In this document: piece by piece, positions 17,181 through 45,379 of the stretch
Numbering within the stretch: position 1 is the stretch's first letter
Layout of the letters: each line of letters begins with the position of its first letter
Assembly (NCBI RefSeq): GCF_003024155.1
Contig: NZ_CP028136.1
Span: 4,216,001 to 4,280,000, forward strand
Direction: 5' to 3'
Source of the DNA: Christiangramia fulva
Lineage (GTDB): Bacteria; Bacteroidota; Bacteroidia; Flavobacteriales; Flavobacteriaceae
DNA: 64,000 nt
Position numbers and translations under genes: made by a program
Notes under the pieces: model-generated
What the model was told of the DNA's origin: nothing
Seen by the model: the letters and a program-made list of their open reading frames with translations, nothing else
Database searches by the model: none

Positions 17181-17193
17181 TATGTTATACATA
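17181..17193. promoter_or_regulatory. TATGT-N3-ACATA operator, upstream of mutarotase-symporter
   Basis: The sequence TATGTTATACATA has perfect 5-base arms and lies 62 bases upstream of the 17119 start. It matches the GT-N3-AC core common to FadR-subfamily GntR operators. It is one of eight sites in this locus and is the only spacer between this unit and the sialate esterase gene. Confidence 0.75.
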
Positions 17194-17213
17194 TTAAGAA
17201 CTATTTTGAAAAT

Positions 17214-18737
17214 CTATGGATTTACAATTAATTTGAATGTCGAAGCCGGTAAATTTTCACTATTGTAAAGATTCCCTGTTGAAAATGGTTGCCATCCATA
17301 AAAGATATATTCCGGCTGCTCTTTAACCTTGATAATCACTTTGTCTTGATGAATTATTGCAGGGATCGGAGTTTTTCCATTTATAGAAAAACCCAAAAGT
17401 TTTTTGTTCCCCATTGTTTTCAATCCATCACCGGTATACTGGAAAGAAATGATCACTTTCCCATTTTTATAATGTGCTTGAACGGGTAACGGACCAGAAG
17501 TAATCATTTTTACACCATAACAATCATTTAAGGCCCAGCGAGCTAGCCGTTCTCCCACATCTTTTTTATTACTTGGATGTATATTTGTTTGGTTCCCAAT
17601 ATCACTGCTTACGACCATCCCCCCATGCTTTATACTTTTCAATAAAAGACGTTGATTATTTCTAAAGGGAGGCCAGTAATGGGAATCATAGTTTATCGTA
17701 TCAATGGAAGATAATTGCACCCAGTAAAAAGGCATTTTCGGCTGGCGCCATTTCGAACGATAATTCTGTATCATTAGCTTTTGTAACGCAGGATACTCCT
17801 CCACCCTTTCTTGTTCTTGTGCATTACTTTCTCCCTGGTACCACACTATTCCTTTTATTGGAAAGGGGAGTAACGTTTTAACCATTGCTTCATAGGCAAA
17901 ACCAGGCTTATAGGAATGATTAGGACCTAAAGAATCCTTGTAAATAAAACTATTTCTCACGTTCTCCATTCCTCGTTGCCTGATCCAAACCGGTAAAGCA
18001 TCATTATATAACCAATTTCCTTGAACCTTTTTTCGGAATACTTTTGAATTCTTCAGTCTATTAACTGAAATGAAGGTCTCAATAGGGGCTCCGCCAATCG
18101 CAATATTTATTAAGCCAATAGGAACGCCGGTTTCGGTTATTATTTTTTTTCCAAAATAATATCCTACCGCACTTAATTCTTTTACCTCTGGCAATTGACT
18201 CTCTTGCCAGGTTCCTGTAAAATATTCTTGCGCATTGAGTTTATTGAGTGCTTCTCTGGTATACTTTTCACCATAAATACCTTTCCCGATATAATTCGCA
18301 TTGAAATACCTTAATCTTCCATCTACTAGTTGTTCTTGTTCTTTGGCAAAATGGGCCTCAGAACCTAAAGGATATTCCATATTAGACTGTCCAGACAACA
18401 ACCATACATCCCCAATTAAAATATTATCCAGTACTATTTTTTCATGCTTGGACCAGATTTCTAATTTTTGGGGTTCTTTTGTAGCCGGTAATGGTTGAAA
18501 TTCTACATTCCAAGTACTATCAACTCGGGTTACGACATTTTTGTAATTCCCGGAAAATAAAATATTAATATGGTTCCCTGGGGCCGATTTCCCCCAAATA
18601 GTTATAGGAACATTTCTTTGAAATACCATATTGGAAGTAAAAATTTTCGGTAAGGTAACCTGGCCATAGCTAGCGCAGACTAGGCAGGTTAAAACTAATA
18701 GTAACGTTATTTTCCTATAAAAACCAGTCAAGAACAT
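17214..18737 (-). CDS. Sialate O-acetylesterase (SIAE-type SGNH esterase)
   Basis: The 507-residue exported protein has a signal peptide ending CASYGQ. An N-terminal beta domain with MVFQRNVPITIWG follows, as in SIAE proteins. Catalytic blocks are SGQSNMEYPLG (nucleophile Ser), AIGGAPIE, WYQGESNAQE and a late NIHPSNKKDVGERLA with the catalytic His. The family removes O-acetyl groups from sialic acids, which lets sialidase and lyase act. The gene overlaps the lrgB gene by 23 bases and is the last of a reverse-strand operon starting at the epimerase near 24.6 kb. Periplasmic location and context strongly support the sialate assignment, although related enzymes deacetylate xylan. Confidence 0.85.
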   Translation of the reverse strand: MFLTGFYRKITLLLVLTCLVCASYGQVTLPKIFTSNMVFQRNVPITIWGKSAPGNHINILFSGNYKNVVTRVDSTWNVEFQPLPATKEPQKLEIWSKHEKIVLDNILIGDVWLLSGQSNMEYPLGSEAHFAKEQEQLVDGRLRYFNANYIGKGIYGEKYTREALNKLNAQEYFTGTWQESQLPEVKELSAVGYYFGKKIITETGVPIGLINIAIGGAPIETFISVNRLKNSKVFRKKVQGNWLYNDALPVWIRQRGMENVRNSFIYKDSLGPNHSYKPGFAYEAMVKTLLPFPIKGIVWYQGESNAQEQERVEEYPALQKLMIQNYRSKWRQPKMPFYWVQLSSIDTINYDSHYWPPFRNNQRLLLKSIKHGGMVVSSDIGNQTNIHPSNKKDVGERLARWALNDCYGVKMITSGPLPVQAHYKNGKVIISFQYTGDGLKTMGNKKLLGFSINGKTPIPAIIHQDKVIIKVKEQPEYIFYGWQPFSTGNLYNSENLPASTFKLIVNP

Positions 18738-19407
18738 AAGGTGTCAATATTGAGGTTATTATTCCGTTCAGGCACATGGCTAAACCGCTATATACCCCTG
18801 CAACTTCTCCAATTTCAAAAGCTCTCGCGGTACCGATACCATGTGCAGCAGTACCTAGCGCTGTACCAATAGCAGCTTCATCCCTAATTCCTAAACCCAT
18901 TAAAAAGCTTGTCCCAAAAACATTTCCAAATATCCCTACAAGGATAACCATTCCTGCTGTTATCTCAGGAAGTCCTCCTAGAAGTTTGGTAATCTCGATG
19001 GCGATGGGTGTTGTCACCGATTTTGCAGCCAGTGATTGAATGAGAATTTGGGGAGTATCAAGAAATAAAAGAAAAAGAACCATACTTATGATACCCGAGA
19101 TCCCGCCAAAAAAAACAGCACAAACAAAAATTTTAAGCCGCTTTTTAATTTCATTGAATCGCTCATGTAAAAAAACCCCCATTGCCACAACCGAAGGAGC
19201 TAAAAACATTTCTAAATAACTGGCCCCCACTTTATAATCGGTAAAATCAATATTACTAATAAATAAAAAAGTAATTATCAGCACAATGGCCATTAAAACC
19301 GGGTTAAGGAATGGTAGACGAATTTCTTTATTGATTTTTAACGCTAAATAATAACACATAACCGTAAGTACCCCCCCAAAAAGATGAATGCTGAAAAATA
19401 ATATCAT
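18715..19407 (-). CDS. LrgB/CidB-family membrane protein
   Basis: The 230-residue protein has about six hydrophobic helices and the LrgB hallmarks LEMFLAPSVVAMGVFL, SVTTPIAIEI and GTALGTAAHGIGTA. LrgB works with the small holin-like LrgA, encoded just upstream with a 4-base overlap. LrgAB/CidAB proteins were first linked to autolysis, and several LrgAB-type pairs are now known as pyruvate transporters. Here the pair is inside an operon for sialic acid breakdown, where neuraminate lyase makes pyruvate. Moving pyruvate across the inner membrane is therefore an attractive, untested role. Confidence 0.85.
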   Translation of the reverse strand: MILFFSIHLFGGVLTVMCYYLALKINKEIRLPFLNPVLMAIVLIITFLFISNIDFTDYKVGASYLEMFLAPSVVAMGVFLHERFNEIKKRLKIFVCAVFFGGISGIISMVLFLLFLDTPQILIQSLAAKSVTTPIAIEITKLLGGLPEITAGMVILVGIFGNVFGTSFLMGLGIRDEAAIGTALGTAAHGIGTARAFEIGEVAGVYSGLAMCLNGIITSILTPYVLDWFL

Positions 19408-19676
19408 TCTTTTTTGAATTGTTTAAATATCCAGGCGGTGATCCATAAGGTGAATAGTGTACTCAAAAAAATGGCCCCTAACATACCCATCAAATTATTC
19501 TTTATTAGGTTAAAATACTCCATTAAGCCAACCCCAAAGGGTACAAAAAAGAGTGCTAAATACTTTAAAAGGAAGTCGGAAGCAGGTTTTACCCAATGTA
19601 ATGGAACAATTTTCAATTGCAAGGAAATAAAAAGGACCAACATTCCTACGATACTCCCAGGAATAGCTACACCCAT
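19404..19676 (-). CDS. LrgA/CidA-family holin-like protein (start uncertain, probably longer)
   Basis: From the first ATG (19676) the product is 90 residues and begins VAIPGSIVGMLVLF, normally the second segment of LrgA proteins. The frame is open upstream to a TAA at 19812-19814 and encodes RAIRSLAILLFFLGIG, a convincing missing first helix. That stretch has no ATG, GTG or TTG. An ATT start at 19748 would give about 114 residues, the usual family length. The gene overlaps lrgB by 4 bases and follows the GH20 gene in the same operon. Either a non-standard start is used, or the start codon has been lost or mis-sequenced. Confidence 0.7.
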   Translation of the reverse strand: MGVAIPGSIVGMLVLFISLQLKIVPLHWVKPASDFLLKYLALFFVPFGVGLMEYFNLIKNNLMGMLGAIFLSTLFTLWITAWIFKQFKKE

Positions 19677-19816: not shown

Positions 19817-21460
19817 CTATTGGTCCACATCTTCAAAGATGTGAGACGCATAGGTATAACCCAGCGCTTCATAGCGCTCTTTTAACTGAAATAATCTTGT
19901 TTTGAAGCCGTCCCAATCTTTCATACCCCGAGGTGTCCAATCTACTTCCGCCAAAGCACTCATTCTTGGCAAAACCATATATTCAACATGATCCGGGGTT
20001 TTCATATATTCCGTCCACACATTACCTTGGGCCCCAAGAATACGATCTTTTTTTGAAGCCGGTAAGGCATCAGGAATTGGTTCGAAAGAATACACTTTTT
20101 TTACTGGAGTATATCCGCCTATTGCTAAAGGCTCATTTTTAGGATCAGCCTGGTAATGATCAAAATACATATGAGAACCCGGGGTCATTATTACATCATG
20201 CCCCATTTGTGCAGCTTCAATCCCTCCTTCTATCCCTCGCCAGGACATGACCGTAGCATTGGGAGCCAGTCCTCCTTCCAGGATTTCATCCCAACCTATA
20301 ATCATTCTGCCATTTTTATTTAAGAATTTTTCGATTCTTTGAATAAAATAGCTTTGTAACTCATGCTCATTTTTTAAGCCCTCCCTTTTGATCACCTCCT
20401 GGGCCTGTGCACTCTCTTCCCATTCCTTTTTTGGAGCTTCATCTCCACCTATATGAATATATTTACTAGGGAAAAGATCCATGACTTCTGTAAGTACATC
20501 TTCTAAAAATTTGAAGGTAGTTTCCTTTGGAGCAAATATTTGAGGAAACACGCCCCATTTAGTGGCCACTTCATAAGGACCTGTATCGTTACCCAATTCC
20601 GGATAAGCAGCCAAAGCAGCCAAAGCGTGGCCCGGCATCTCAATTTCAGGAATGATTACAATTTGCCTTTTTTGGGCGTAAGCTACAATATCTTTTATCT
20701 GATCTTGAGTATAATATCCTTTATAAGCCTGACCATCACTTTTGTAAGGATCGAAATTTTTGCCAACGATAGTTTCTTTTCGCCTGGAGCCTACCTCCGT
20801 TAATTTGGGATACTTTTTTATTTCGATTCTCCATCCCTGATCTTCGGTAAGATGCCAGTGAAATCGATTCATTTTGTGAAGCGCCAAAAGATCAATATAT
20901 TTTTTTATAAAAGTTGTTGAGAATAGATGTCTTCCCACATCCAGGTGCATTCCCCTATAAGGAAAACGTGGTGCATCATCAATACTTACAGCAGGAAGGG
21001 TAAGATCAGAAATTGCTTCTTTTTCGGAAGAAGGAGGCAGCAACATACGAAGGGATTGAATTCCATAAAATACACCCGCAGCAGTTGCTCCAATGATTTT
21101 AATACCATTGTAAGAAATATCTAATTTATAGCCCTCTGGATTTTTAATTGAAGAATCCACCTTTAAAATTATTTGATGCCCTTGAGCGTGCTCCTCTGAG
21201 CGGTTAAGTTCGAAACCGGAGGCTTGAGAAAGCATATTTACCAGGTAGTCAGCTTCCCAATTAAGAGAATCAGCTGCAGCCACTGAAGTATTTTTATCAA
21301 TCAAAAACCTCCCTTCATTGATTTGCATTTTTTCCGGAAGTGGAATAATAGGGTAATCGTCCTTGGTATTTTTAACCGTTTTAAATTCTTCATAGGACTT
21401 ATTAGGAGCACAAGAAAAAATAAGCGTTATTAGGACGACCAAATAAAATTTTCTTTTCAT
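19817..21460 (-). CDS. GH20 beta-N-acetylhexosaminidase, lipoprotein
   Basis: The 547-residue protein begins with a lipoprotein signal peptide (LIFSC, Cys17) and has the GH20 N-terminal alpha/beta domain (YPIIPLPEKM). The barrel contains RGMHLDVGRHLF, HWHLTEDQGWRIEI and HIGGDEAPK. Asp340-Glu341 in the last motif are the substrate-assisted catalytic pair. It removes terminal beta-GlcNAc or beta-GalNAc from glycans in the periplasm or on the surface. It lies 35 bases after the sialidase gene and upstream of lrgA in the same reverse operon, consistent with stepwise trimming after sialic acid removal. Confidence 0.93.
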   Translation of the reverse strand: MKRKFYLVVLITLIFSCAPNKSYEEFKTVKNTKDDYPIIPLPEKMQINEGRFLIDKNTSVAAADSLNWEADYLVNMLSQASGFELNRSEEHAQGHQIILKVDSSIKNPEGYKLDISYNGIKIIGATAAGVFYGIQSLRMLLPPSSEKEAISDLTLPAVSIDDAPRFPYRGMHLDVGRHLFSTTFIKKYIDLLALHKMNRFHWHLTEDQGWRIEIKKYPKLTEVGSRRKETIVGKNFDPYKSDGQAYKGYYTQDQIKDIVAYAQKRQIVIIPEIEMPGHALAALAAYPELGNDTGPYEVATKWGVFPQIFAPKETTFKFLEDVLTEVMDLFPSKYIHIGGDEAPKKEWEESAQAQEVIKREGLKNEHELQSYFIQRIEKFLNKNGRMIIGWDEILEGGLAPNATVMSWRGIEGGIEAAQMGHDVIMTPGSHMYFDHYQADPKNEPLAIGGYTPVKKVYSFEPIPDALPASKKDRILGAQGNVWTEYMKTPDHVEYMVLPRMSALAEVDWTPRGMKDWDGFKTRLFQLKERYEALGYTYASHIFEDVDQ

Positions 21461-21495: not shown

Positions 21496-22602
21496 TTAAT
21501 TCTGGGTAACAAATTCAATGGGAAAGCTTACAAATACATTTTCCGTGTAATCATCCTTTTCAAAAAAAACTCCAATATCTCCATTTTCCAGCACGGTCAT
21601 AGATGAATAAGCAGCACTGCCCGGGTAGATCACCTTCCCTGCACTCCAGGTTTTTCCCTGATCATAACTAACTTTTATGGTAAGGTTTTTTCGACTGTCC
21701 CTGTTGTTGGAATTAGTAAATAGAAGTAGGTTTTCTGTTTTGCCATTTTTATGGTAGGGATATACAACGATGCTGGCATTATTTCCAGGATCTGTAAGCT
21801 CTTTTTCAGGCCTGGTCTCCCAGGTCTTTCCCTTATCATGAGAAATATGGACATACCTATACCCCATACCACCGTTAACTCTTGAATTAATCATATAATC
21901 CCCATTGTCTAATTCAATGACTTTAGATTCATCGGCAGGATTCACCGGCGAATCAATAAAAAACCAGCTGGCACCATGGTCATCACTTCCAAATAAATAG
22001 ACTCCCTTATCTAAATCGACAAGCGTATGGAGCAATCGACCCGATTGGGCTTGAATACCATGTCCGGAGGTTATAAACTTGAAATCGTTATACCATTGAT
22101 CTTTAGTTATTTGGGATGTTATATCTTTAGGTTTACTCCAGGTTTTTCCATTATCTGAACTTTTGACAAACTGTAAATAATAAATATCCTTTTCATTCTC
22201 TAAATCCATATAATTATAGAATAAAAAGACCTCTCCCGTCTCTTGATCCACAATCATTGAAGGATCAGAGGCAGACACTCCAAAAGGAAAATCCACGACG
22301 GTTTCAATATCACCCCAGGTTTTTCCATTGTCCTGGCTTCGTCGGATAACAATATTGATATCCTTACTACCCCGAAGATCAGCACAACCAAGTGCACGCT
22401 CATCAATAGCCGCAATAAGGTCTCCATTAGGAGCAGTTACAAGTGCTGGAATCCGAAAACATTTAACCCCATCAACCTCCCGGGCATCAAATAATTTTTG
22501 ATAGTTTGATGTTTCTTCAGGGAACTGAGAAGGAACTGGTGGATTTTGAGCTGAGCAACTCGTTAAAATCAAAAAGACAAATAGTAAGATTACTTTATTC
22601 AT
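21496..22602 (-). CDS. GH33 exo-alpha-sialidase, lipoprotein
   Basis: The 368-residue protein has a lipoprotein signal peptide (ILTSC, Cys16) and the sialidase FRIP motif (Phe49-Pro52) with the first catalytic Arg. Five Asp-boxes follow: SQDNGKTW, SSDNGKTW, SDDHGASW, SHDKGKTW and SYDQGKTW. These define the six-bladed propeller of GH33. It releases terminal sialic acid from glycoconjugates outside the inner membrane. No extra lectin domain is visible and the length is that of a compact sialidase. It sits between a creatininase-like gene and the GH20 gene in the operon controlled by the 24587-24599 operator. Confidence 0.93.
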   Translation of the reverse strand: MNKVILLFVFLILTSCSAQNPPVPSQFPEETSNYQKLFDAREVDGVKCFRIPALVTAPNGDLIAAIDERALGCADLRGSKDINIVIRRSQDNGKTWGDIETVVDFPFGVSASDPSMIVDQETGEVFLFYNYMDLENEKDIYYLQFVKSSDNGKTWSKPKDITSQITKDQWYNDFKFITSGHGIQAQSGRLLHTLVDLDKGVYLFGSDDHGASWFFIDSPVNPADESKVIELDNGDYMINSRVNGGMGYRYVHISHDKGKTWETRPEKELTDPGNNASIVVYPYHKNGKTENLLLFTNSNNRDSRKNLTIKVSYDQGKTWSAGKVIYPGSAAYSSMTVLENGDIGVFFEKDDYTENVFVSFPIEFVTQN

Positions 22603-22628: not shown

Positions 22629-23402
22629 TTAGGTTTCATAGAGATTATCAATGGAGCATTTTTGAAGTTCTTTCAAAAAACCAGCTATTTTTTTAACAGA
22701 ATCCTGAAAAAATTTTTTACCGTTTTCTTCCGTAGCTTTTCTTGGGTTACCCACCCCGGTATCTTCTGTAACTTTGGACCATTCTCTTTGTGAAACGACC
22801 CATCCTTCACGAATGCCCCTTAATTTGGATTTTTTTTCTTTTCCTAAACCAGCCTGGTTTAAAGGCAACACCAGGTCGGGTTTTAAATACATCATTGCAG
22901 CTGTTTCCAACTCCCCCGCATGATCGCCAGGTTCGGAAAAATATTCCGTAGCCTTTTCAATCTGCCACCAGTTTATAGCACATGTAAAAACCTCTGGATG
23001 CATCATACTTAGTTCACGAATAATTTGTTTAAAATTGTTACCCCCATGCGCATTAATGATCACCAGTTTATCAATACCATCTTTTTTCAATACCTGTATG
23101 ATATCCGAAAGAAAAGCCAGTTGGGTACTGGGATTCATGTTCATACATAAAGGCACTTTCATTTGCCCAGTATTAACGCCATAAGACATGGTCGGTAATA
23201 CAATGGAATGAATATTATTATCCCATGCCTTTTCCGCAGCTTTGATTGCTACTTCTTCTGCTAGAAAATTATCCGTACCATATGGTAAATGATAATTGTG
23301 GGCCTCTGTGGCACCCCAGGGAAGTAAAGCCATATCAAACTTCATTTCTCTGACACTTTTAAAGTTGGTTTCCTGTAAGGAGAAAGATCGTATAGTTTTC
23401 AT
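22629..23402 (-). CDS. Creatininase-family metal-dependent amidohydrolase
   Basis: The 257-residue protein carries creatininase-fold metal-site motifs: LLPWGATEAHNYHLPYGTD, NAHGGN and GDHAGELET. The family opens lactams or cyclic amides, and in some pathways cleaves peptides or formamides. There is no signal peptide, so it acts in the cytoplasm. Its start overlaps the epimerase stop by 4 bases (ATGA type), so it is translationally coupled to a sialic acid catabolic enzyme. A role on a modified or cyclised amino sugar, such as a neuraminic lactam, is conceivable, but I know of no such assigned activity. The function is left open. Confidence 0.8.
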   Translation of the reverse strand: MKTIRSFSLQETNFKSVREMKFDMALLPWGATEAHNYHLPYGTDNFLAEEVAIKAAEKAWDNNIHSIVLPTMSYGVNTGQMKVPLCMNMNPSTQLAFLSDIIQVLKKDGIDKLVIINAHGGNNFKQIIRELSMMHPEVFTCAINWWQIEKATEYFSEPGDHAGELETAAMMYLKPDLVLPLNQAGLGKEKKSKLRGIREGWVVSQREWSKVTEDTGVGNPRKATEENGKKFFQDSVKKIAGFLKELQKCSIDNLYET

Positions 23403-24583
23403 ATTTCGAACTTTTTATGACCCCCGTTCTTTTCCTCAATGGCCTGGAAATTTTTCCAACATTGGTATAAACCTCTGGGAACATGGAAGCATCCCTTCCA
23501 TTTTCCACCTTTCAAGGTTAAATGTGGCTCGCCTTGTCTATTTAGATAACCAAACCATTCTCCGAATTTTTTATCAGGAAAATGATTCCAGGTATACTGG
23601 TGTACTTTTTCAAACCATTTAAAGAGCGCTGGATTCTGCGTATGTAAGTAAGCCTTTGATAAAGCTATTAGCGCTTCCAGATGTACCCACCATAATTTTT
23701 GATCCCATTCCAGTTGCTGGGGTGGGTATCCCTTTATGTCCATGAAGTAGAAGATTCCTCCATACTGTTTGTCCCAGCCATATTCCATTATATTAAGGAT
23801 AACTTCAGAAGCCTTTTGTATTAGATCCACGTCTTTTGTTCGTACACCAATATCAATCATAAACCACATGGCCTCCAGCCCATGACCTGGATTGATGAGC
23901 CTGCCTTCAAAACTATCATTGAAGCCTCCGTCGGGATTGACATTTTCAAAAATGAGCCCCGATGAAGAATCCAAAAAAGTTGTCATTATCTCATCACGAC
24001 TAAAAGCAATAGTTTCTTCAACTTCTTCATTAGATAACACATCTTGCAACTCCAGCACCAGGTTCGAAAGAATCATCGGAAGTGAAAAATTCTTTAGTAT
24101 CCTTGCGCCCGTAGCCTTTTCATATTTTCCCTTAGGATTTCTACGACGTCGTAGTATACCGCGGTAGGTATTGATGGCAAGATTTTTAACTTCATGATCC
24201 CGTGTTGCCTTAGTGTATTGGCCGAAGGCCATTGCAGCAAAACAATCGGAAAAGATATTATAAGGCTCAATAAGAGGCGTTCCTTCACGAGTCAATGAGA
24301 AATAAAAATCGCCAGCTTCATTGACCGCTTTTTTCCTAAGGAAATCTATCCCTTGTCGAGAAATTTCGAGCCATTGTGGTTTCTTTTCTATGTTATTGTA
24401 TAAAAAAGAAAACATCCATGCCTGCCTTCCCTGCATCCAGGTAAATTTATCGGTTTCGTAAACTCTACCCTTTTGATCCAGGCAAGAAAAGTAACCACCA
24501 AAGTCCGGGTCTAAAGAATTTTTTTCCCAAAAAGGAATAATATTATTAAGTAATTCTTCTTTATATAATTGGGAATACTTCAT
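23399..24583 (-). CDS. N-acylglucosamine 2-epimerase (AGE), ManNAc to GlcNAc
   Basis: The protein is an alpha6/alpha6-barrel AGE-family enzyme with WMQGRQAWMF, INPGHGLEAMWF and KLWWVHLEAL. Late FHVPRGLYQCW completes the candidate catalytic His set. AGE enzymes interconvert ManNAc and GlcNAc, the step after neuraminate lyase. I place the start at 24583 (MKYSQLYKEELL). The upstream in-frame ATG at 24598 encodes MYNI, which is the TATGT-N3-ACATA operator itself read as codons. The gene heads an operon with creatininase, sialidase, GH20, LrgAB and sialate esterase genes. Confidence 0.88.
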   Translation of the reverse strand: MKYSQLYKEELLNNIIPFWEKNSLDPDFGGYFSCLDQKGRVYETDKFTWMQGRQAWMFSFLYNNIEKKPQWLEISRQGIDFLRKKAVNEAGDFYFSLTREGTPLIEPYNIFSDCFAAMAFGQYTKATRDHEVKNLAINTYRGILRRRRNPKGKYEKATGARILKNFSLPMILSNLVLELQDVLSNEEVEETIAFSRDEIMTTFLDSSSGLIFENVNPDGGFNDSFEGRLINPGHGLEAMWFMIDIGVRTKDVDLIQKASEVILNIMEYGWDKQYGGIFYFMDIKGYPPQQLEWDQKLWWVHLEALIALSKAYLHTQNPALFKWFEKVHQYTWNHFPDKKFGEWFGYLNRQGEPHLTLKGGKWKGCFHVPRGLYQCWKNFQAIEEKNGGHKKFEI

Positions 24584-24586
24584 ATT

Positions 24587-24599
24587 TATGTTATACATA
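24587..24599. promoter_or_regulatory. TATGT-N3-ACATA operator abutting the epimerase start
   Basis: TATGTTATACATA has perfect arms and ends 3 bases from the preferred epimerase start. A bound repressor here would block transcription start or early elongation of the seven-gene sialic acid operon. Confidence 0.75.
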
Positions 24600-30342: not shown

Positions 30343-30355
30343 TATGTCATACATA
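30343..30355. promoter_or_regulatory. TATGT-N3-ACATA operator between fucosidase and gntR
   Basis: TATGTCATACATA has perfect arms and is followed at once by a further TATGT half site (30356-30360). It lies 119 bases upstream of the fucosidase start and 63 bases upstream of the GntR start, as expected for autoregulation of a divergent pair. Confidence 0.75.
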
Positions 30356-32739: not shown

Positions 32740-34245
32740 CTACTGATATCCTGGTGTTTGTTCTAATAGGGGGTTTCTTCCAATCATATCCAAGGTGATT
32801 GGCAATAAGAGTTTATATTCATCTCCTGGATTTAAATATTCTACGTTGTTGATGACATAAGAATCTCCGGCTCGACGCAGGTCCCACCATCTTTTTCCTT
32901 CTCCAATAAATTCAATATATCTCTCTTTCAAAATGGCTTGTGTATTTTCCGCTATAGATCCATTCGCATAAGCATCAACCGCAGGATCATAATTTTCCCC
33001 ATAAGCCCTTTGTCTTATTTGATTGATCTCCTCTGAAGGATCTTCACCCAAATGATTTTTTGCTTCCGCAAGTAAGAGAAGGACATCGGCATACCTGTAA
33101 ATCGGTACGTCGTTATCAAAAATTCTTACACTACCATCTACTCTGCCTAAAAATTTCTTGAGAATAGCTCCGAAATATTTCTCCTCGTTTAAACTACTGT
33201 ATCCTTCACCATTATTGGAATCACTGAATAAACGAATAAAGGTAGCATCTTTTCTAGTGTCGAAATTATCGTCAGAAAGTTGTAGTGTTTTTATACTGGG
33301 ACCATAACGGTTGGATCCGTTAATAACAAATCCTTCCATAGACTCTCCTTCTTCATTGTACTGGGGCCATATTTCAGTAGTTCTACCGGTAAACAAGTTA
33401 TAATAATTTTCAGCTTCATTTTCAGCATATTGAATAGCAAAAATGAACTCATTGTTATTTTCATTTTCCGGCCCCCACAGATCGGAGTAATTTGAAACAA
33501 GATTTATATTGGGGATATCTTTTATTTGCTCTAAAGCATTTTTAGCCTCCTGGAAATCAGAATCTCCTCCGTTTAATAAATTTCCGGACCAAATATAAGC
33601 ATCTCCCTTCAAGGCCAGCGTTGCCGCTTTAGACCAATAGTTTCTGTTTCCGTTCCAAAATGAATCGTCATCACCAAAAGCTTGCAAACTTCTCTCAAGG
33701 TCATCTTTAATTAGCTGCATTACTTCCTCCTGCGAAGATCTAGGCTTGCTCAATCCTTCGGCAGATGTAGTATTCAGGATTTCTGTACTAATAGGAACCG
33801 CACCCCAGGTTTTTAAAAGGGTATAGTAATAATAGGCACGTAAGCCGTAGGCCTCCCCCATTAAATGATTTTTGGTAACCTCATCGCTAAAATTGATGTT
33901 CGGTACGTTTTGAAGAAAATCATTTATTTGATGAATTCTTCCATAGAAGCCAGCCCAGCCCCCAAATGGTGCCGTTGAGACGGTAATATTAGATTCGATT
34001 AAATCAATATTAAAAGGAGATTCGAAGGTTGGCCCTCCCCACTCATCACTCCGTATAGCTCCTAATAACCAGATATCATAAGTTTCTCCTCTTAAGGCTC
34101 CGTATAGACCGGAATGTGCGGCAAGCGCTCCGGTTTCACTATTCCAGAAACCATTATACGTAAGTTCACTTGGCGAATCCAGCTCCAGTTCACTCTCACA
34201 AGATGTGAGAAACAGAGCAGCCAAAATGATATATAAATATTTCAT
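32740..34245 (-). CDS. SusD/RagB-family glycan-binding outer-membrane lipoprotein
   Basis: The 501-residue protein has a lipoprotein signal peptide (FLTSC) and SusD features. These include the N-terminal FWNSETGALAAHSGLYGALR helix, MGEAYGLRAYYYYTLLKTWGAVP, a TPR-like helical core and the C-terminal RYIEFIGEGKRWWDLRRAG. SusD proteins cap SusC transporters and bind the glycan at the cell surface. The gene follows susC with an 11-base gap. With sialidase, fucosidase, galactosidases and hexosaminidases around, the ligand is probably a sialylated or mucin-type oligosaccharide. Confidence 0.95.
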   Translation of the reverse strand: MKYLYIILAALFLTSCESELELDSPSELTYNGFWNSETGALAAHSGLYGALRGETYDIWLLGAIRSDEWGGPTFESPFNIDLIESNITVSTAPFGGWAGFYGRIHQINDFLQNVPNINFSDEVTKNHLMGEAYGLRAYYYYTLLKTWGAVPISTEILNTTSAEGLSKPRSSQEEVMQLIKDDLERSLQAFGDDDSFWNGNRNYWSKAATLALKGDAYIWSGNLLNGGDSDFQEAKNALEQIKDIPNINLVSNYSDLWGPENENNNEFIFAIQYAENEAENYYNLFTGRTTEIWPQYNEEGESMEGFVINGSNRYGPSIKTLQLSDDNFDTRKDATFIRLFSDSNNGEGYSSLNEEKYFGAILKKFLGRVDGSVRIFDNDVPIYRYADVLLLLAEAKNHLGEDPSEEINQIRQRAYGENYDPAVDAYANGSIAENTQAILKERYIEFIGEGKRWWDLRRAGDSYVINNVEYLNPGDEYKLLLPITLDMIGRNPLLEQTPGYQ

Positions 34246-34256: not shown

Positions 34257-37200
34257 TTATAAAGTTAAGTTAAGTCCTAAAGTGAGTGTACGAGGTAAAG
34301 GAAATTCTCCTGCCTGATATCCTCCCATTTCAGGAGTATCCCCACTGTAGCTTTTAAAATAGTGCAAATTCGAACCTGTCACATACAGACTTAATTTTTG
34401 AATTTTATCTTTCAACAGTTCTTCCGTGGGAACGTCATAGCTAAGCGTGATTTCACGCAGTGCTAAATAGTCTCCTTTTTCCCAGAACCTGCTGTTTACA
34501 ATCCCTTCACTTCCTCGAAAAATATTTCTTTGGGCATCCACGAAAACAAATCGTGGAACATCCGTGTCGGTATTTTCTGGAGTCCAGGATTGAAGGACCA
34601 GAGCATCTTGATTCAAATTACCCTGAGTTTGAGCAAGTCCTTTACCTCTGATATGGTTGTAAATGATATGACCGGCAGCAAAATCAGTTTTAACATATAA
34701 ACCAAAATTTTTATAATTAAGGCTTGTGGACAATCCTCCATAAAAATCCGGCGTTGTTCTTCCAATTACCTGCCTGTCATAGCTATTAATGACATCATCC
34801 CCATTTACATCGACCCATGCCACATCTCCCGGATATCTTTTAAAAGGATTTGGAAGAAGATCATCCTGCACGTTGGCATCCGCATCTACTTCAGCCTGGT
34901 TTGCATAGATGTAATCCTGCACGTAAGTAACCACTAAATCTGTACCTACTCGTTGACCTTCCTGCAATCCTCCAACCCATTCTAACTCCCCGGTATCTGG
35001 ATTATAAATCTGAGTACCTCCCTGGCGATTCAATTCATTATCATTTTCAGGTAAGGAGACTACAAAACTTTTAATCTTGGAGAGCGTTCCCCGAATATTC
35101 CAGTTTAAATTCTCTGTTTTAATAAGATCGGCGCTCAACTGGACTTCAACTCCTTTATTTCTAAGTGTTCCATTATTGGTAGTAATCCCACTGAAACCCG
35201 TCCAGTACGGCAAAGTCAGCGAAGCCAGTTTATCTTCAACATCTCTTATAAAATAATCCCCGATAAAATTTATACGGTCATTAAACAGGGATAGATCCAA
35301 CCCGAAATTCAAAGTGGTTGAACGCTCCCATTGTAATTCAGGGGTGGGTAAGGAAGTATTTGCATACCCCGTTTGCCCATCATAAATTCCCTGAGAACCA
35401 TAAGATCCAAAGGTTGAAAAATTACCTAAAACATCCACGTTTCCGTTTACACCGTAACTTATTCTAGGCTTGATTTTTGAGAAAATATTATCTAAGGAAG
35501 AATCTTTGAAAAAATCTTCCTTATGTAAATTCCATCCAAAAGAGGCACCGGGGAAAAATCCGAATTTATTATTGCCCAGTCGGGAAGAACCATCATATCT
35601 GAAGGTAAGGCCTACCAAATATTTTTCATCAAAATCATAATTTAATCTTCCGAAGCCAGAGACAATTTTATGTAAAGTCCTAAAACTATAAGGAACACCA
35701 TTTGCTTCAGATCCCGCATTGAGCGTCGTGATTAAATCTGTTGGAGAATTTTTCGTTCCCGCACTGAAAGTAAAATATTCATCTTTATAGTATTCCGAAC
35801 CCAATAACACATCAAAATAATGTTTCCCCAAGGTTTTGGTATAATTTAAAGTACCTGTCAGCTGATTCCGAAGAGTTTTATCGACTCCTGCCGAAGCATT
35901 TCTGGAGGTAATTAAAGAACTACCGTTTAAATATGCTTTATTGAACGACTCATCCAAATTATTAATAGCAAAATGACTACCTGTAAGAGAAAAGGTAAGG
36001 TTAGAAAGGATGTTCCAATCGATACCCATGGAAGCCGTAATTCGCTGTTCCAAATTATCTCTGATAAATTTATCTTGATAATAAAGGGGATTACCAAATC
36101 CGGCATTGGTACCAGGGTTTAATTCATCAGACAAACTCCCGTCAGGATTGTTATTATACGTCCGGGATGTAGGAGGTTGCCCTGCAAATCTTCTAAAGAC
36201 GGTATTATTACTTCCTAAAGGGCTGAGACTTAAATTGGAATGAGAATATAATACATTGGCATTTACACTGAAATTATCAAAAATATTATATGAACCTGTT
36301 AATTTTCCAGAATATCTCTTAAACCCTGATCCTAAGATCAAACCTTCGTTATCCAAATATCCGAGACTGGCATATAAAGAACCTTTGTCATTACCTCCCT
36401 GGAAAGCTAAATAATGATCGATGCTTCGACTGGGTTGATAAATATTCCCACTCACATCATTTTGACGGAATAAAATTTCCTTGGAGGGATCTACTGGATC
36501 CGTAATTGTCGCCCATCCAGGATAATTTAGTAAATAGCGGTTATCATCGGTTAAATATTGCGTAGTGAAAGGGGAATTTGTGGTATTACCTCCCGTACCA
36601 AAAGCCGTGGCTCCATTGAGGAAACCAGCATTGAAATTGGTCCTTCCGGTAGCTTCATTGTAATATAAAATCGCCTGTCTATTGTATCGAATGAAATCTG
36701 CAGCATCCAAATACTCAGGTGTTTCTCTGCGGTAATTAAAACTATATTTATGCTTATAAGTAATGGTTGCTCTACCCGCATTTCCCGTTTTTGTGGTTAC
36801 CAGAACCACACCATTGGCAGCTCTCGCCCCATATATTGCCGTTGCGGCAGCATCTTTTAATACTTCTATAGACTCAATATCATCCGAATTTAGGGCATAA
36901 AAACTGCCAGGGACCCCATCGATTAATATTAAAGGAGATCCGGAACCACTGAAACTGGTTCCTCCTCGTAAGACAAGATCCGGGGTAGCTCCCGGTTGGC
37001 CTGTGGTATTAGTTACTCTTAAACCAGGAATGGTTCCCTGTAATGCGGTAGCGGGATTTGACCTGGTAGAGGTTTCCAAGATCCGGGTATCCAGTTTCGA
37101 AATCGATGTAGTAAGTTTAGCACGAGATTGCTTTCCATACCCGGTAACTACCACTTCGTCAAGGCTGGCTAAGTCTTCTTTCATTGAAACGTTTATTTCA

Positions 37201-37538
37201 GATTCAGTTCCAACTACCTTTTTTTGAGTTTCAAACCCCAAAAAACTGAAAACCAGAATATCCCCTGGAGTCGCTTTGATATTATATTTACCATCAAAAT
37301 CGGTTTGGGTTCCTGTGGTTGTGTTTTCAATAACCACATTAACCCCCGCCAAAGGCATCTGATTTCCATCTGTCACTAATCCGGTGATTTCCTTTTCCTG
37401 AGCTAAGGCCGAAACCCCAAGCAGTAAAACAAAAAGGAAAATTCCAGTACTCTTAATTTTTTCAATAGCTGTTTTGATCGAAGGCAAACAACTTAGAAAA
37501 AAAGAATTGAAATCTTTTTTCAAGTAATAAGGATTCAT
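34257..37538 (-). CDS. SusC/RagA-family TonB-dependent outer-membrane transporter
   Basis: The 1093-residue protein has a long N-terminus with a signal sequence ending VSALAQ. A carboxypeptidase-regulatory-like domain (ITGLVTDGNQMPLAGVNVV) follows, then the SusC signature DEVVVTGYG. The plug contains LRGGTSFSG and IESIEVLKDAAATAIYGARAANGVVLVTTK, and the C-terminal beta barrel ends TLTLGLNLTL. It imports oligosaccharides across the outer membrane using TonB energy. It is transcribed with the SusD gene and has a TATGT-N3-ACATA operator 57 bases upstream, so uptake is under the same control as sialic acid catabolism. Confidence 0.96.
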   Translation of the reverse strand: MNPYYLKKDFNSFFLSCLPSIKTAIEKIKSTGIFLFVLLLGVSALAQEKEITGLVTDGNQMPLAGVNVVIENTTTGTQTDFDGKYNIKATPGDILVFSFLGFETQKKVVGTESEINVSMKEDLASLDEVVVTGYGKQSRAKLTTSISKLDTRILETSTRSNPATALQGTIPGLRVTNTTGQPGATPDLVLRGGTSFSGSGSPLILIDGVPGSFYALNSDDIESIEVLKDAAATAIYGARAANGVVLVTTKTGNAGRATITYKHKYSFNYRRETPEYLDAADFIRYNRQAILYYNEATGRTNFNAGFLNGATAFGTGGNTTNSPFTTQYLTDDNRYLLNYPGWATITDPVDPSKEILFRQNDVSGNIYQPSRSIDHYLAFQGGNDKGSLYASLGYLDNEGLILGSGFKRYSGKLTGSYNIFDNFSVNANVLYSHSNLSLSPLGSNNTVFRRFAGQPPTSRTYNNNPDGSLSDELNPGTNAGFGNPLYYQDKFIRDNLEQRITASMGIDWNILSNLTFSLTGSHFAINNLDESFNKAYLNGSSLITSRNASAGVDKTLRNQLTGTLNYTKTLGKHYFDVLLGSEYYKDEYFTFSAGTKNSPTDLITTLNAGSEANGVPYSFRTLHKIVSGFGRLNYDFDEKYLVGLTFRYDGSSRLGNNKFGFFPGASFGWNLHKEDFFKDSSLDNIFSKIKPRISYGVNGNVDVLGNFSTFGSYGSQGIYDGQTGYANTSLPTPELQWERSTTLNFGLDLSLFNDRINFIGDYFIRDVEDKLASLTLPYWTGFSGITTNNGTLRNKGVEVQLSADLIKTENLNWNIRGTLSKIKSFVVSLPENDNELNRQGGTQIYNPDTGELEWVGGLQEGQRVGTDLVVTYVQDYIYANQAEVDADANVQDDLLPNPFKRYPGDVAWVDVNGDDVINSYDRQVIGRTTPDFYGGLSTSLNYKNFGLYVKTDFAAGHIIYNHIRGKGLAQTQGNLNQDALVLQSWTPENTDTDVPRFVFVDAQRNIFRGSEGIVNSRFWEKGDYLALREITLSYDVPTEELLKDKIQKLSLYVTGSNLHYFKSYSGDTPEMGGYQAGEFPLPRTLTLGLNLTL

Positions 37539-37594: not shown

Positions 37595-37607
37595 TATGTA
37601 TTACATA
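37595..37607. promoter_or_regulatory. TATGT-N3-ACATA operator upstream of susC
   Basis: TATGTATTACATA has perfect arms, 57 bases upstream of the SusC start and 17 bases before the stop of the lyase gene. Confidence 0.75.
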
Positions 37608-37624: not shown

Positions 37625-38530
37625 TTATAAAACTTTCGAGTTCTTACTTAAAAAATTTGAAATACCTAGTTGACCGAATTCCTCTCTTACCTCTTGAAGC
37701 TCTTTATCTGTAAGGGTTGGATGGGGAAAACGAGAAGGTCCGCAATCAATTCCAAGGGATTTCATAAAGCTTTTTCCTCCCCCATTAAAGCTTCCGGCCC
37801 GGCTCAAAATTTGTACAAATTTTAGTACAAAAGATTGCAGCTCTCGAGCCTGGGATAAATCAGTATCATAAAATTGATCGGCAATCGATTGATATAAAGG
37901 CATTAAATGATTAAAAGTACTTCCCACCCAACCTTTGGCACCTGCCGCCAAACTAGGAAGGAAAGCTTCATCAACACCAAAAAAGATATCCTTTCCCCCC
38001 GCCTGATCGTTGGTTTCTTGGAAAGAGACAAGGTTATTTTCGGTAAACTTTATTCCTGCAAAATTTTCAATGCATTGCGAAGCCCGTTTTAAAAATTCGA
38101 CCATATTAAAATTAACACCTGTAAGTGCAGGCAAATGATAGTAGTAAAATGGCAGATCAGGAGCACAAGCAGCTATTTCCTCACAATATTTTACCAGCTG
38201 ATCCAGAGAGGATGGCTTAAAATAAAAAGGAGCAATTGCAGCAATGGCATCCGCCTTTCCCTGTGAATGGAATGCTAATCGTTTAGCTTCCTCCAAACTG
38301 GTATCTCCAACGTGATTAATTAGTGTTAAGGCGCCTTTGTGCTCTTTCCAGGCTTCAAGTAGTTGCATTCTTTCATCGGTACTCAGGGACACAAAATCAC
38401 CAGTTGATCCATTTATAAAAATACCATGGACCTTATTCTCCTGTAGATACAGGCCATAATCAGGCACCACTTCAGGGTTCAAAGAAAGATCTTTTTTAAA
38501 AGGGGTGTAAGTAGCAGCAAAAATTTGCAT
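37625..38530 (-). CDS. nanA: N-acetylneuraminate lyase (DapA/NanA family)
   Basis: The protein has the DHDPS/NAL barrel motifs INGSTGDFVSL, FYYYHLPALTGVNF (catalytic Tyr) and FAGIKFTENN (Schiff-base Lys). The YYYHLPALTG block, rather than the DapA YNVP/R pattern, points to neuraminate lyase, which splits Neu5Ac into ManNAc and pyruvate in the cytoplasm. I prefer the start at 38530 (MQIFAATYTPFKK), the normal N-terminus. The in-frame ATG at 38554 reads MYNIMLNN, which is the operator palindrome translated; an ATG at 38542 lies in between. The gene lies between the operators at 37595-37607 and 38543-38555. Confidence 0.88.
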   Translation of the reverse strand: MQIFAATYTPFKKDLSLNPEVVPDYGLYLQENKVHGIFINGSTGDFVSLSTDERMQLLEAWKEHKGALTLINHVGDTSLEEAKRLAFHSQGKADAIAAIAPFYFKPSSLDQLVKYCEEIAACAPDLPFYYYHLPALTGVNFNMVEFLKRASQCIENFAGIKFTENNLVSFQETNDQAGGKDIFFGVDEAFLPSLAAGAKGWVGSTFNHLMPLYQSIADQFYDTDLSQARELQSFVLKFVQILSRAGSFNGGGKSFMKSLGIDCGPSRFPHPTLTDKELQEVREEFGQLGISNFLSKNSKVL

Positions 38531-38542
38531 ATTATTAAGCAT

Positions 38543-38555
38543 TATGTTATACATA
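38543..38555. promoter_or_regulatory. TATGT-N3-ACATA operator upstream of neuraminate lyase
   Basis: TATGTTATACATA has perfect arms and lies 12 bases before the preferred lyase start, identical in sequence to the copies at 17181 and 24587. Confidence 0.75.
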
Positions 38556-38947: not shown

Positions 38948-40882
38948 TTATAGCTTCATTCGCTTAAATGCTTCCATGGCTGCATATTTTGCTAATCCCA
39001 GGTCCCTGTATTTGATAGCCGTTTCTTTGTTACGATCCTCGGCCCGGACCCAAAACTCCCGAATGTCTTCTCCCTGAAACATGACTCCATCCTTTTGAGA
39101 TTGATGAAAAAATATGGCCTGCCTTTTTTTCAATACCTGATCAGGACTTAAAGGAACAGCCATATCTATTTCATGTAACTCAAATTCATGCCATGCTCCT
39201 CTATAAAGCCATAACCAGCAATCTGCCATGTAATCCCGATCTTTTAATTCTGCCAATGATTCGAGAATTATATCCAGACACACCTTATGAGTGCCATGAG
39301 GATCGGCAAGATCTCCAGCGGCATAAATTTGGTGGGGTTCTATCTGATCAATCAATTCTTTAACTATATCAATATCTTTTTGAGACAAAGGATTTTTCTT
39401 GATTGTACCGGTTTCATAAAAGGGAAGGTTCAAAAAATGTACATTAGTATCTGGCAATCCTTCAAATCTTGTGGCCCCTAAAGATTCATTCTTGCGAATA
39501 AGTGTTTTTAATCGCCTTACCTGTTCACTATTAATTTCGTTTTCTTTTCTTTGTTTCAGTTCCAGGATTAAAGGCGCCAATTTTTGTTTGTCCATATCGC
39601 TCGCAAATTCCCAGGCTATTTCAGCGAATTTAAGAGCTTCATGATCGGCAACTGCAATATTCCCCGAAGTCTGATAAGCTACATGAACCTCATGACCCTG
39701 CTCAACCAGACGATCAAAGGTCCCTCCCATAGAAATAACATCATCATCAGGGTGTGGGCTGAATATCAATATTCTTTTGGTCTTTGGAAGTGCTCTTTCG
39801 GGGCGATTCGTGTCATCAGCATTATACTTACCTCCTGGCCACCCGGTGATCGTTTGTTGCATTCTATTAAACATACCGATGTTCAAATTGTAAGCAGATC
39901 CTTCCTGAGCCAGTAAATCCGACATTCCATAGTCATTGTAATCTTTGTCAGTAAGATTTAAGATAGCCTTCCTGACTTTTTGGGATAACCAGATGATCCC
40001 TTTGTTTTTTAATTCTTCCGACCAGTTACAGGATCCTACCAGCCAGGGAGTCTTAATACGGGTTAATTCCGAAGCGGCACCTTTATCAAGTACAAAAGTG
40101 GTATTTTGATGATTTTGAAGGTAAGTAGCCGGAATAGCACTGGAAATTTCACCTTCTATAGACTTTTTTATGATATCTGCTTTATTTTGTCCCCACGCCA
40201 AAAGCACAATTCTATGAGCTCTTTTGAGTGTATTAATACCCATAGTTATAGCTTTTCTGGGGACGTTTGAAATTCCGTGAAAAGATGAAGCAGCATCAGA
40301 TCTGGTTAAATAATCCAGGGTTATTATTCGGGTTCCGGAGTTATAATGAGAACCGGGTTCATTGAAACCTATATGACCGGTTCGACCAATACCCAAAAGT
40401 TGAAAATCAATTCCACCCGCGTTCTTAATATTCTCTTCATAATCCAAACAATAGTTCATCAACTTATCCTGAGGAATGCTCCCATCGGGAATATGGATGT
40501 TTTCGGGACGGATATTAATATGTTTGAACAGATGTTCGTGCATGAAATAATGATAACTATGTACATTATTTCTATCCATGGGCCAGTATTCATCCAGGTT
40601 GAAGGTGATGACGTTGTCAAAGTCTAGTCCTTCTTCCTTGTGGAGTCTCACCAATTCCGCATAGACATTAATTGGGGAAGAACCCGTGGCAAGTCCTAGA
40701 ACGCAGTTTTCCCCTTGCTGCCGCTTTGATATAATTAATTCGGCAATTTCTTTTGCTACCAGTTTAGAGGCATCCGCAGAGTTTAAAAAAATTTCATTAT
40801 GGATTTTTTCAAAACGAGTCTCTTCGAATTTACCGGGAGATTTATAAAGGATATTCTGATATTCTTTTTCAAGGATTTTCAT
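38948..40882 (-). CDS. nagB: Glucosamine-6-phosphate deaminase fused to PIG-L/LmbE deacetylase domain
   Basis: The 644-residue protein has NagB at about residues 25-290, with LGLATGSSP, FNLDEYWPM (catalytic Asp97) and GIGRTGHIGFNEPG. NagB converts glucosamine-6-phosphate to fructose-6-phosphate and ammonia. A linker leads to a PIG-L/LmbE zinc deacetylase domain starting at ILIFSPHPDDDVISMGG near 370. Its late DLADPHGTHK supplies the third metal-site His. PIG-L domains deacetylate GlcNAc-type substrates. No NagA is visible in the window, so the fused domain may remove the N-acetyl group before the deaminase acts, though this is an inference. A degenerate operator lies 40 bases upstream. Confidence 0.9.
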   Translation of the reverse strand: MKILEKEYQNILYKSPGKFEETRFEKIHNEIFLNSADASKLVAKEIAELIISKRQQGENCVLGLATGSSPINVYAELVRLHKEEGLDFDNVITFNLDEYWPMDRNNVHSYHYFMHEHLFKHINIRPENIHIPDGSIPQDKLMNYCLDYEENIKNAGGIDFQLLGIGRTGHIGFNEPGSHYNSGTRIITLDYLTRSDAASSFHGISNVPRKAITMGINTLKRAHRIVLLAWGQNKADIIKKSIEGEISSAIPATYLQNHQNTTFVLDKGAASELTRIKTPWLVGSCNWSEELKNKGIIWLSQKVRKAILNLTDKDYNDYGMSDLLAQEGSAYNLNIGMFNRMQQTITGWPGGKYNADDTNRPERALPKTKRILIFSPHPDDDVISMGGTFDRLVEQGHEVHVAYQTSGNIAVADHEALKFAEIAWEFASDMDKQKLAPLILELKQRKENEINSEQVRRLKTLIRKNESLGATRFEGLPDTNVHFLNLPFYETGTIKKNPLSQKDIDIVKELIDQIEPHQIYAAGDLADPHGTHKVCLDIILESLAELKDRDYMADCWLWLYRGAWHEFELHEIDMAVPLSPDQVLKKRQAIFFHQSQKDGVMFQGEDIREFWVRAEDRNKETAIKYRDLGLAKYAAMEAFKRMKL

Positions 40883-40921: not shown

Positions 40922-40934
40922 TATGTTATACTTG
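40922..40934. promoter_or_regulatory. Degenerate TATGT-N3-AC operator upstream of nagB fusion
   Basis: TATGTTATACTTG keeps one full arm and the GT-N3-AC core but has a changed right arm (ACTTG). It lies 40 bases upstream of the 40882 start, at the spacing seen for the GlcNAc kinase site. Confidence 0.5.
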
Positions 40935-40951: not shown

Positions 40952-44104
<3,153 letters not shown>

Positions 44105-44105
44105 T

Positions 44106-44118
44106 TATGTATAACATA
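44106..44118. promoter_or_regulatory. TATGT-N3-ACATA operator upstream of GH2
   Basis: TATGTATAACATA has perfect arms, directly before the GH2 start codon. Confidence 0.7.
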
Positions 44119-44475
44119 ATACTTTTTCAAAACTACTATATTATTTGAAGATTTTTAGCCTAGCCATACTTTTTTTAAAAATCCTTTTCTCCTTTATCAT
44201 AAGCTGATAATCCGTTCCTTGTATAGATTCATTGGATAAATACTAGCTGCAGATGAATTTTCTGGAATTATTCCCATTGTAACATTATTTAAAGAAGCTA
44301 TAAGATTCATAAAAAGTAGCCGTGATTACCTGTCATAACAGGCTGATGACTGAATTTTCTTATCCATCACTCTTTGTAGTGGAGCTGCAAAATTAAGCTC
44401 AAGCCGAAATAGCGCTGGAGACCGTGATTTATATAGATTTGAAACTACTTCCAAAGTAATTTGAGCTAAATAAAA
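44119..44475. other. Intergenic stretch, no gene seen
   Basis: About 360 bases between the GH2 operator and the GlcNAc kinase stop. The GH2 promoter must lie here. I see no convincing frame, hairpin with T run, or repeat. Confidence 0.5.
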
Positions 44476-45330
44476 CTATGCTGGACTCTCTAGCATGTTG
44501 TCTACCAAGGCATCGATTGGGCTTTTAACAAAATTGCCTGGCTTATAATTTAATTGCAATAATTCCTCCTCGATAATATTTCTGCAATAATAGGCTACCG
44601 AACCAATAAAATGGACGGGATAGCATTGCAATTCCTCTTTATAAGGTTGAAGATTTTCAATTAAAAAATTTTGAATGTTCCTTCTTATAAGATCCTTGAA
44701 AAAAGGTTTATCTAAATTTTGGATAGCTAACTTAGTAAAAGAGGCCAGATACCGGTTTGGAAAAGATTTCTGATATAACTGGGTGAGTACGAATTCAAGT
44801 TCCATATTGAAGGACTGATCAAATATCCTTCGCAGATGCCGGGGCATTTTTTCAAAATAATAACTCTGTAAAATTTCACGCCCGATCGCATTTCCACTAC
44901 CGGCGTCGTCCAATAAATAGCCTAAAGAAGGCATCCTTTGAACGATATTTTTTCCATCAAAAAAACAACTATTTGATCCGGTACCTAAAATGCACACCAC
45001 AGCGGGTTTCAAAGTTACACTATAGACTGCTGCCGCCATATCCCCCTTAATTATAATTTCTGCAGCAGGAGACATAAGTTTTTGAAAAATTTCTTTCATT
45101 TTTTCATCCGTTTCCTTCGTACCGCAACCTGCTGCATAAAAAAATATTTCAGAAACCTTCCGAAAACTATTTTTCAATTCTTGATTGGATGAAATAATAC
45201 TTAAAATTTCTTTGTGATCAAGTAATACGGGGTTTATTCCTTCCGTGTGAAACCGGTTTTTGAAATTTCCCTGATAATCAGACAGTACCCAATCACTTTT
45301 GGTAGATCCACTTTCCGCTATTAAAATCAT
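44476..45330 (-). CDS. N-acetylglucosamine kinase (BadF/BadG ATPase family)
   Basis: The 284-residue protein has the ASKHA-fold motifs LIAESGSTKSDWVL (phosphate 1 loop), AVVCILGTGSNSCFFDG (phosphate 2) and GYLLDDAGSGNAIGRE. This is the pattern of eukaryotic-type NAGK/BadF kinases in Bacteroidota. It phosphorylates GlcNAc (or glucosamine) after the epimerase step, giving GlcNAc-6-phosphate for deacetylation and deamination. It is cytoplasmic and transcribed alone under an operator 37 bases upstream. Confidence 0.87.
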   Translation of the reverse strand: MILIAESGSTKSDWVLSDYQGNFKNRFHTEGINPVLLDHKEILSIISSNQELKNSFRKVSEIFFYAAGCGTKETDEKMKEIFQKLMSPAAEIIIKGDMAAAVYSVTLKPAVVCILGTGSNSCFFDGKNIVQRMPSLGYLLDDAGSGNAIGREILQSYYFEKMPRHLRRIFDQSFNMELEFVLTQLYQKSFPNRYLASFTKLAIQNLDKPFFKDLIRRNIQNFLIENLQPYKEELQCYPVHFIGSVAYYCRNIIEEELLQLNYKPGNFVKSPIDALVDNMLESPA

Positions 45331-45366
45331 ATCTAAAATTTGAAATAAATTTAATAAAATTTGTAT

Positions 45367-45379
45367 TATGTCCTACATA
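45367..45379. promoter_or_regulatory. TATGT-N3-ACATA operator upstream of GlcNAc kinase
   Basis: TATGTCCTACATA has perfect arms, 37 bases upstream of the 45330 start. It is the last site of the regulon in this window. Confidence 0.75.

Follow-up and report, generated by a model that had tools for sequence, protein, structure and literature searches.

What reads the 13-bp palindrome TATGT-N3-ACATA that recurs through the sialic acid cluster of Christiangramia fulva, and to which signal does its reader respond? The cluster lies in the 64,000-nucleotide stretch analyzed here (contig NZ_CP028136.1, positions 4,216,001 to 4,280,000; hereafter the window). An earlier note on this DNA had proposed that the GntR protein encoded at 30418 regulates all of the units that carry the palindrome, and our comparisons support this proposal, as the motif, the genes and the regulator travel together in relatives. 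We conclude that GntR 30418 very probably acts as a repressor through the TATGT-N3-ACATA sites. The motif, its position in the promoter and its tie to the GntR family all emerge from sequence comparison.

All seven perfect-arm copies listed by the earlier note are present in the window, as is a degenerate copy at 40922 with two mismatches. Shuffled sequence contains 0.06 exact copies on average, and none of 100 shuffles reached seven. Across the whole genome (4.38 Mb, one contig) the exact motif occurs at eight places, compared with five for the reversed control pattern, and seven of the eight fall in the sialic acid cluster (binomial 3.6e-15 for seven of eight within one given 28.2-kb stretch). 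The eighth site (1040144) lies inside an open reading frame (ORF) and was taken as a chance occurrence. With one mismatch allowed, motif and control each gave 118 genomic hits, so the excess is confined to the perfect copies in the cluster. Furthermore, a sequence-only profile made with 63 sites in relatives, and with no C. fulva site among them, matched only the seven window sites genome-wide (14 hits on both strands, E up to 10), although 150 of 2995 first-look candidates were scored and weak sites may have escaped; under the same limit the degenerate copy was not recovered. Taken together, the shuffles, the genome count, the relatives' profile and the 59 loci of relatives described below lead us to reject a chance origin of the copies. 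The exact, one-mismatch and profile scans give no support for a regulon beyond the cluster in C. fulva. A 21-bp extended palindrome, GTAT-TATGT-N3-ACATA-ATAC, was also considered and reflects only a weak preference, with the perfect form in 2 of 158 loci.

The sites lie upstream of transcription units, as the earlier note had held, at gaps of 0-61 bases after correction of gene starts rather than the 2-62 bases it gave. The mechanically called ORF starts of the epimerase (24598) and NanA (38554) genes fall inside the operator, and in-frame ATG codons follow the operator after 3 bases (24583) and 0 bases (38542), respectively. Similarly, the site at 30343 does sit between the GntR and fucosidase genes, at distances of 62 and 118 bases instead of 63 and 119.

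For comparison we used 59 loci in which the same GntR is encoded; the genera represented include Gramella, Salegentibacter, Maribacter, Arenibacter, Muricauda, Neolewinella and Capnocytophaga. These loci (1.15 Mb) hold 152 exact sites versus a single reversed-control site, and 53 of the 59 have at least one. Counting only genes with a placeable start and 300 bases of room, a site precedes GntR in 52/58 cases, the epimerase in 47/51, NanA in 43/50 and SusC in 35/42. Sites are rare before genes internal to operons: SusD 0/37, the sialate acetylesterase-type SASA gene 0/23, sialidase 1/63, glycoside hydrolase family 20 (GH20) 1/28 and creatininase 1/22. For GH29 the count is 1/4. Eight of the 152 sites have no gene assigned; four of these (L016, L029, L064 and L066) stand just before a SusC match. 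Six loci lack an exact copy; in L054, L060 and L061 a copy with one mismatch stands at most 330 bases before GntR.

A survey of 299 genomes of the family identified 26 with the GntR at 51% identity or more, 6 with only more distant proteins (37-49%) and 267 with none at E 1e-30. The unrefined motif is widespread, occurring at least once in 269 of the 299 genomes, and we used a refined form, TATGTATNACATA, derived from the 59 GntR loci, some of which possibly come from the same species as the surveyed genomes. Refined sites numbered 86 in the 26 carriers (control 15), 2 in the 6 genomes with distant proteins (control 3) and 122 in the 267 non-carriers (control 204). At least two refined sites were present in 25/26 carriers, 0/6 distant genomes and 22/267 non-carriers (Fisher 3e-22, carriers versus non-carriers). 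Seven operators far from GntR in other carriers, a small hand-picked sample from four genomes (G012, G123, G178 and G209), were also fetched. They precede a GH2 gene (L075), a GH27 gene (L076) and a GEVED/BNR sialidase gene (L079), or lie between GH29 and a gene for a NanM-type Kelch domain fused to a sodium:solute symporter (NanM-SSF; L080, L081). The L078 site stands 83 bases before a SusC-type gene and has a two-component gene on its other side. The NanM-SSF fusion of the window (14411-17119) thus recurs in relatives, in L080 and L081.

Several of these observations weigh against assigning the whole set to GntR 30418. The Capnocytophaga loci L062, L063 and L065 (51-53%) have no copy with two or fewer mismatches within 330 bases before GntR, NanM-SSF has an upstream site in just 11/45 cases, 22 of the 267 genomes that lack the GntR nevertheless carry at least two refined sites, and one of the seven distant operators (L077) lies inside an AraC-type gene.

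The protein itself is of a kind that would read such a palindrome. GntR 30418 has an N-terminal GntR winged helix (PF00392, 53.9 bits, cut-off 27) and a C-terminal FCD domain (PF07729, 59.7 bits, cut-off 24.3), and no other FCD-type protein was found in the genome. Its AlphaFold model has two domains (mean pLDDT 84.2, pTM 0.75) and matches FCD regulators, in agreement with the Pfam assignment; E. coli NanR, likewise of the GntR/FadR subfamily, is among the matches, not the first. The GT-N3-AC core of the operator is that of the GntR/FadR (FCD) subfamily. The earlier note had called the regulator NanR-like, which holds for its predicted function but does not place it in the E. coli type: with the NCBIfam NanR model the protein scored 91.8 bits against a cut-off of 260, no pair of the GGTATA direct repeats bound by that type was found at spacings of 0-6 bases in the window, and its 32-residue N-terminal extension is absent, the GntR domain match beginning at residue 17. 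No ROK match occurs among the Pfam hits of the protein. From its sequence, GntR 30418 is assigned to the GntR/FadR (FCD) family and not to E. coli-type NanR.

We infer binding, repression and the ligand from these comparisons. A GntR dimer would bind TATGT-N3-ACATA and repress the sialoglycan cluster, its own gene included. Once sialic acid is present, the FCD pocket would take up an acidic sugar, most likely N-acetylneuraminic acid (Neu5Ac), in contact with R108 and a metal held by E153, H157, H204 and H226, and the repressor would be released. In E. coli NanR, an Arg holds the Neu5Ac carboxylate and further residues serve as zinc ligands (PMC8012715). By residue count on the alignment, R108 matches this Arg and E153, H157, H204 and H226 match the zinc ligands. 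Of the Asp/His3 metal site of FCD proteins, the three His are invariant in 24 sequences and the Asp is replaced by an invariant Glu. This replacement speaks against a Neu5Ac pocket, as does NanR Arg203, which is not conserved and falls on the variable H184; moreover, the same pocket residues occur in paralogues beside GH28 genes (see below), and they are therefore no proof of Neu5Ac. On balance the pocket appears suited to an acidic sugar, and we consider Neu5Ac, the natural candidate, somewhat favored. GntR might instead bind the sites and sense a catabolite, ManNAc, N-acetylglucosamine (GlcNAc) or GlcNAc-6-phosphate. The regulon takes in GlcNAc-level steps (epimerase, kinase candidate and NagB fusion), which together with the loss of Arg203 would suit this idea, but a ligand with a carboxylate fits R108 and the residues of the metal site, and the genome has a separate helix-turn-helix (HTH)-ROK regulator beside a second NagB fusion, a GH20 gene and a ROK kinase gene. 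We regard a catabolite ligand as possible, though unlikely.

The position of the operator within the promoter bears on repression by GntR 30418. The flavobacterial -7 box, TAnnTTTG, is placed at -12 to -5 of the transcription start in PMC9723704. Among relatives, an exact box starts -14 to -7 of the first operator base in 37/47 epimerase promoters (36 at -11) and 25/44 NanA promoters (-11 to -9), so that the operator falls on the transcription start; the same position holds a box in 1/35 SusC and 0/11 NanM-SSF promoters. A TAnnTTTG/TAnnTTG box instead lies 18-32 bases downstream in 14/35 susC and 7/11 nanM promoters (1.1 and 0.7 in shuffled sequence), and in 1/47 epimerase and 0/44 nanA promoters. 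This would put the operator over the -33 region, which it probably covers at susC and nanM. A repressor bound over the start (epimerase operon, nanA) or probably over -33 (susC, nanM-symporter) would bar RNA polymerase, and both positions suit repression. The downstream boxes at susC and nanM could also be read as placing an activator upstream of the -7 box, at least at these promoters. We consider activation improbable: at epimerase and nanA, where the operator lies over the start, it is implausible, and at susC and nanM the operator would cover the -33 element. Two points argue against the promoter scheme, namely that only the epimerase promoter in the window has an exact box in the over-start position, and that the susC/nanM class rests on 21/46 promoters. 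No clear -7 box was seen for the NagB fusion and GntR in the window. The -7-like boxes of susC and nanM in relatives are often TAnnTTGY, a separate promoter class (SM5) in the published flavobacterial map.

We also compared 94 distinct GntR homologues with their operators, searching upstream for three arm types only (TATGT, TTTGT and ATTGT). Sites of homologues with T53 have an A/T center in 64 cases and a G/C center in 2; all 10 sites of N53 homologues have a G/C center, and the single S53 case has an A/T center. The N53 set comprises 16 proteins, of which L137, L138, L141, L143, L146 and L156 lack a site of these arm types. The wing sequences SKK, TKK and SRK pair with TATGT in 70/70 cases, SNK pairs with ATTGT (2), and SRT with TTTGT (4) or ATTGT (1). 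Because the T53 proteins form a single clade on the tree, the pairing of residue 53 with the operator rests on few events, and we do not treat it as independent proof. HTH positions 28 and 39 were placed on GntR 30418, as L42 and T53, by way of the FadR sequence. In FadR-type proteins the residue at position 39 is associated with the bases that flank the operator center, with Asn preferring A/T, and Arg at position 28 with G (PMC4494728). The fit of our set to these contacts is partial, as AGT and ACT fit, AGG and CCT half fit, and L42 at position 28 meets a T.

Paralogous FCD-GntR proteins lie beside a GH28 gene in L071 (9052-11287) and L072 (9243-11484), with TATGT-N3-ACATA of G/C center upstream of both a SusC-like gene and the GH28 gene. 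The core operator is therefore not restricted to sialic acid. More distant FCD-GntR proteins in L069, L070 and L073 adjoin DHDPS-type lyase genes (in L069 a sialidase gene as well) and have changed operators of the form TTTGT-N3-ACAAA or ATTGT-N3-ACAAT. We tentatively suggest, without favoring it, that FCD-GntR repressors of one clade have spread among the glycan loci of Bacteroidota, keeping the GT-N3-AC core and retuning through residue 53 (T/S for an A/T center, N for G/C) and the wing (SKK for TATGT, SRT mostly for TTTGT, SNK for ATTGT), and that one sialic acid operator in two promoter positions, over the start (catabolic genes) or at -33 (import), could stage induction.

That the motif is bound by some other regulator, a ROK-type NanR as in Bacteroides thetaiotaomicron or another GntR-type protein, is scarcely credible: B. 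thetaiotaomicron NanR (BT0433) is a predicted ROK protein (PMC3878776), and the C. fulva genome encodes a 422-residue HTH-ROK protein and two further GntR-HTH proteins above cut-off that lack FCD, but the ROK gene lies in a separate island with no motif copy at 0-1 mismatch in its 14 kb, and the motif follows the FCD-GntR gene across 299 genomes and differs with the helix and wing residues of FCD-GntR. This island (L158 2885-10802, genome 1630884-1638801) is of GlcNAc type, with the HTH-ROK repressor, a second NagB/PIG-L fusion (57% identical), GH20, an MFS transporter and a ROK kinase. In B. thetaiotaomicron one ROK protein is predicted to govern both sialic acid and GlcNAc (PMC3878776). Control of sialic acid and of GlcNAc appears to be split between two regulators in C. 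fulva.

The degenerate copy at 40922 has to be judged separately. With up to two mismatches allowed, the window gives 38 hits versus 39 expected, and the copy is therefore no evidence by itself. Two sister Gramella (L092 and L093; NagB fusions 77-79% identical) carry perfect operators 47 and 42 bases upstream of the same gene, and only because of these do we accept the copy, which is best read as a decayed member of the operator set. Thirteen other NagB-fusion loci (12 distinct; 56-69% in BLAST) had no exact copy in about 4.9 kb, although in two of them a copy with one mismatch occurs, over 1 kb away from the gene.

The proteins of the cluster (Table 1) are, by Pfam and NCBIfam matches, of kinds that fit the freeing, import and breakdown of sialic acid and the sugars beneath it: sialidase, sialate esterase, GH20, GH2, GH27, GH29, SusC with a NanU-like SusD, the NanM-symporter fusion, a NanA-type lyase, a GlcNAc 2-epimerase, a BadF kinase candidate and a NagB/PIG-L fusion. 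Beside the regulator, positions 31131-32624 encode a 497-residue protein of no clear family; its ORF meets the GntR gene tail to tail, with a 4-base overlap at the GntR stop, and the protein is conserved at about 60% in two sister species. Adjoining genes for GH123-type and GH31 glycoside hydrolases and a DeoR-type regulator (3776-4534) occupy 3776-13287, outside the operator set.

Table 1. Operators and genes of the sialic acid cluster, in window coordinates (box offsets from the first operator base).
Feature	Position	Strand	Remarks
NanM-like Kelch domain fused to sodium:solute symporter	14411..17119	-	
Operator	17181..17193	.	Exact; 61 bases before NanM-SSF fusion gene; one-mismatch box at +28
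SASA sialate acetylesterase-type protein	17214..18737	-	Neighbor without own operator
GH20 hexosaminidase	19817..21460	-	Presumed epimerase operon
BNR-repeat sialidase	21496..22602	-	Presumed epimerase operon
Creatininase-family protein	22629..23402	-	Presumed epimerase operon
GlcNAc 2-epimerase-type protein	23399..24583	-	Start corrected
Operator	24587..24599	.	Over predicted transcription start of epimerase operon; exact TATATTTG box 11 bases upstream of first base
GH29 alpha-L-fucosidase	28005..30224	-	
Operator	30343..30355	.	Between GntR and GH29 fucosidase
GntR/FCD regulator, proposed binder	30418..31134	+	238 residues; both domains above cut-off
SusD-type protein, NanU-like	32740..34245	-	333.6 bits versus cut-off 425
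SusC/RagA TonB-dependent importer	34257..37538	-	
Operator	37595..37607	.	56 bases before susC; TAAATTGT (TAnnTTGY-type) 23 bases downstream of first base
N-acetylneuraminate lyase-type protein (DHDPS family)	37625..38542	-	Probable start; NCBIfam NanA models match below cut-offs
Operator	38543..38555	.	Directly before nanA; mechanical ORF start inside operator; one-mismatch -7 box at -12
NagB deaminase fused to PIG-L deacetylase domain	38948..40882	-	
Degenerate operator	40922..40934	.	2 mismatches, one arm intact; 39 bases before NagB/PIG-L fusion
GH2 beta-galactosidase, LacZ type	40952..44104	-	
Operator	44106..44118	.	1 base before GH2 (LacZ-type); exact -7 box TAGTTTTG at -17
BadF/BcrA ATPase-family sugar kinase candidate	44476..45330	-	26.5 bits, below cut-off 31.5
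Operator	45367..45379	.	36 bases before BadF-family kinase candidate

The proposed switch is of a familiar kind, and comparison supports it very well; of greater interest are the operator code and the two promoter positions. If correct, the switch provides a regulator, an operator and a target list for the way in which a large group of Flavobacteria uses sialic acid, along with a set of operators ready for testing and a natural series of regulator/operator pairs on how GntR proteins choose their DNA. It would also suggest that sialic acid and GlcNAc control can be divided between two regulators in one genome. Among the literature titles and abstract openings listed, outside subscription journals and RegPrecise, none names a GntR sialic acid regulator in Bacteroidetes, and the only sialic acid regulator that we met in print for the phylum is a ROK protein.

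GntR 30418 resembles the palindromic regulators of the FadR subfamily (FadR, LldR, PdhR and others) in the GT-N3-AC core of its operator and in HTH position 39 (T53 here), which in that subfamily is linked to the operator center (PMC4494728). The data set of that study, as far as it was available, contains no Bacteroidetes FadR-type protein. Unlike members of the subfamily, GntR 30418 has L42 in place of Arg at HTH position 28, and the matching base is T and not G (TATGT, where the subfamily often has TGGT). The ROK-type NanR of B. thetaiotaomicron (BT0433), predicted in PMC3878776 to control genes for sialic acid and GlcNAc within the same phylum, belongs to a protein family unrelated to the GntR described here.

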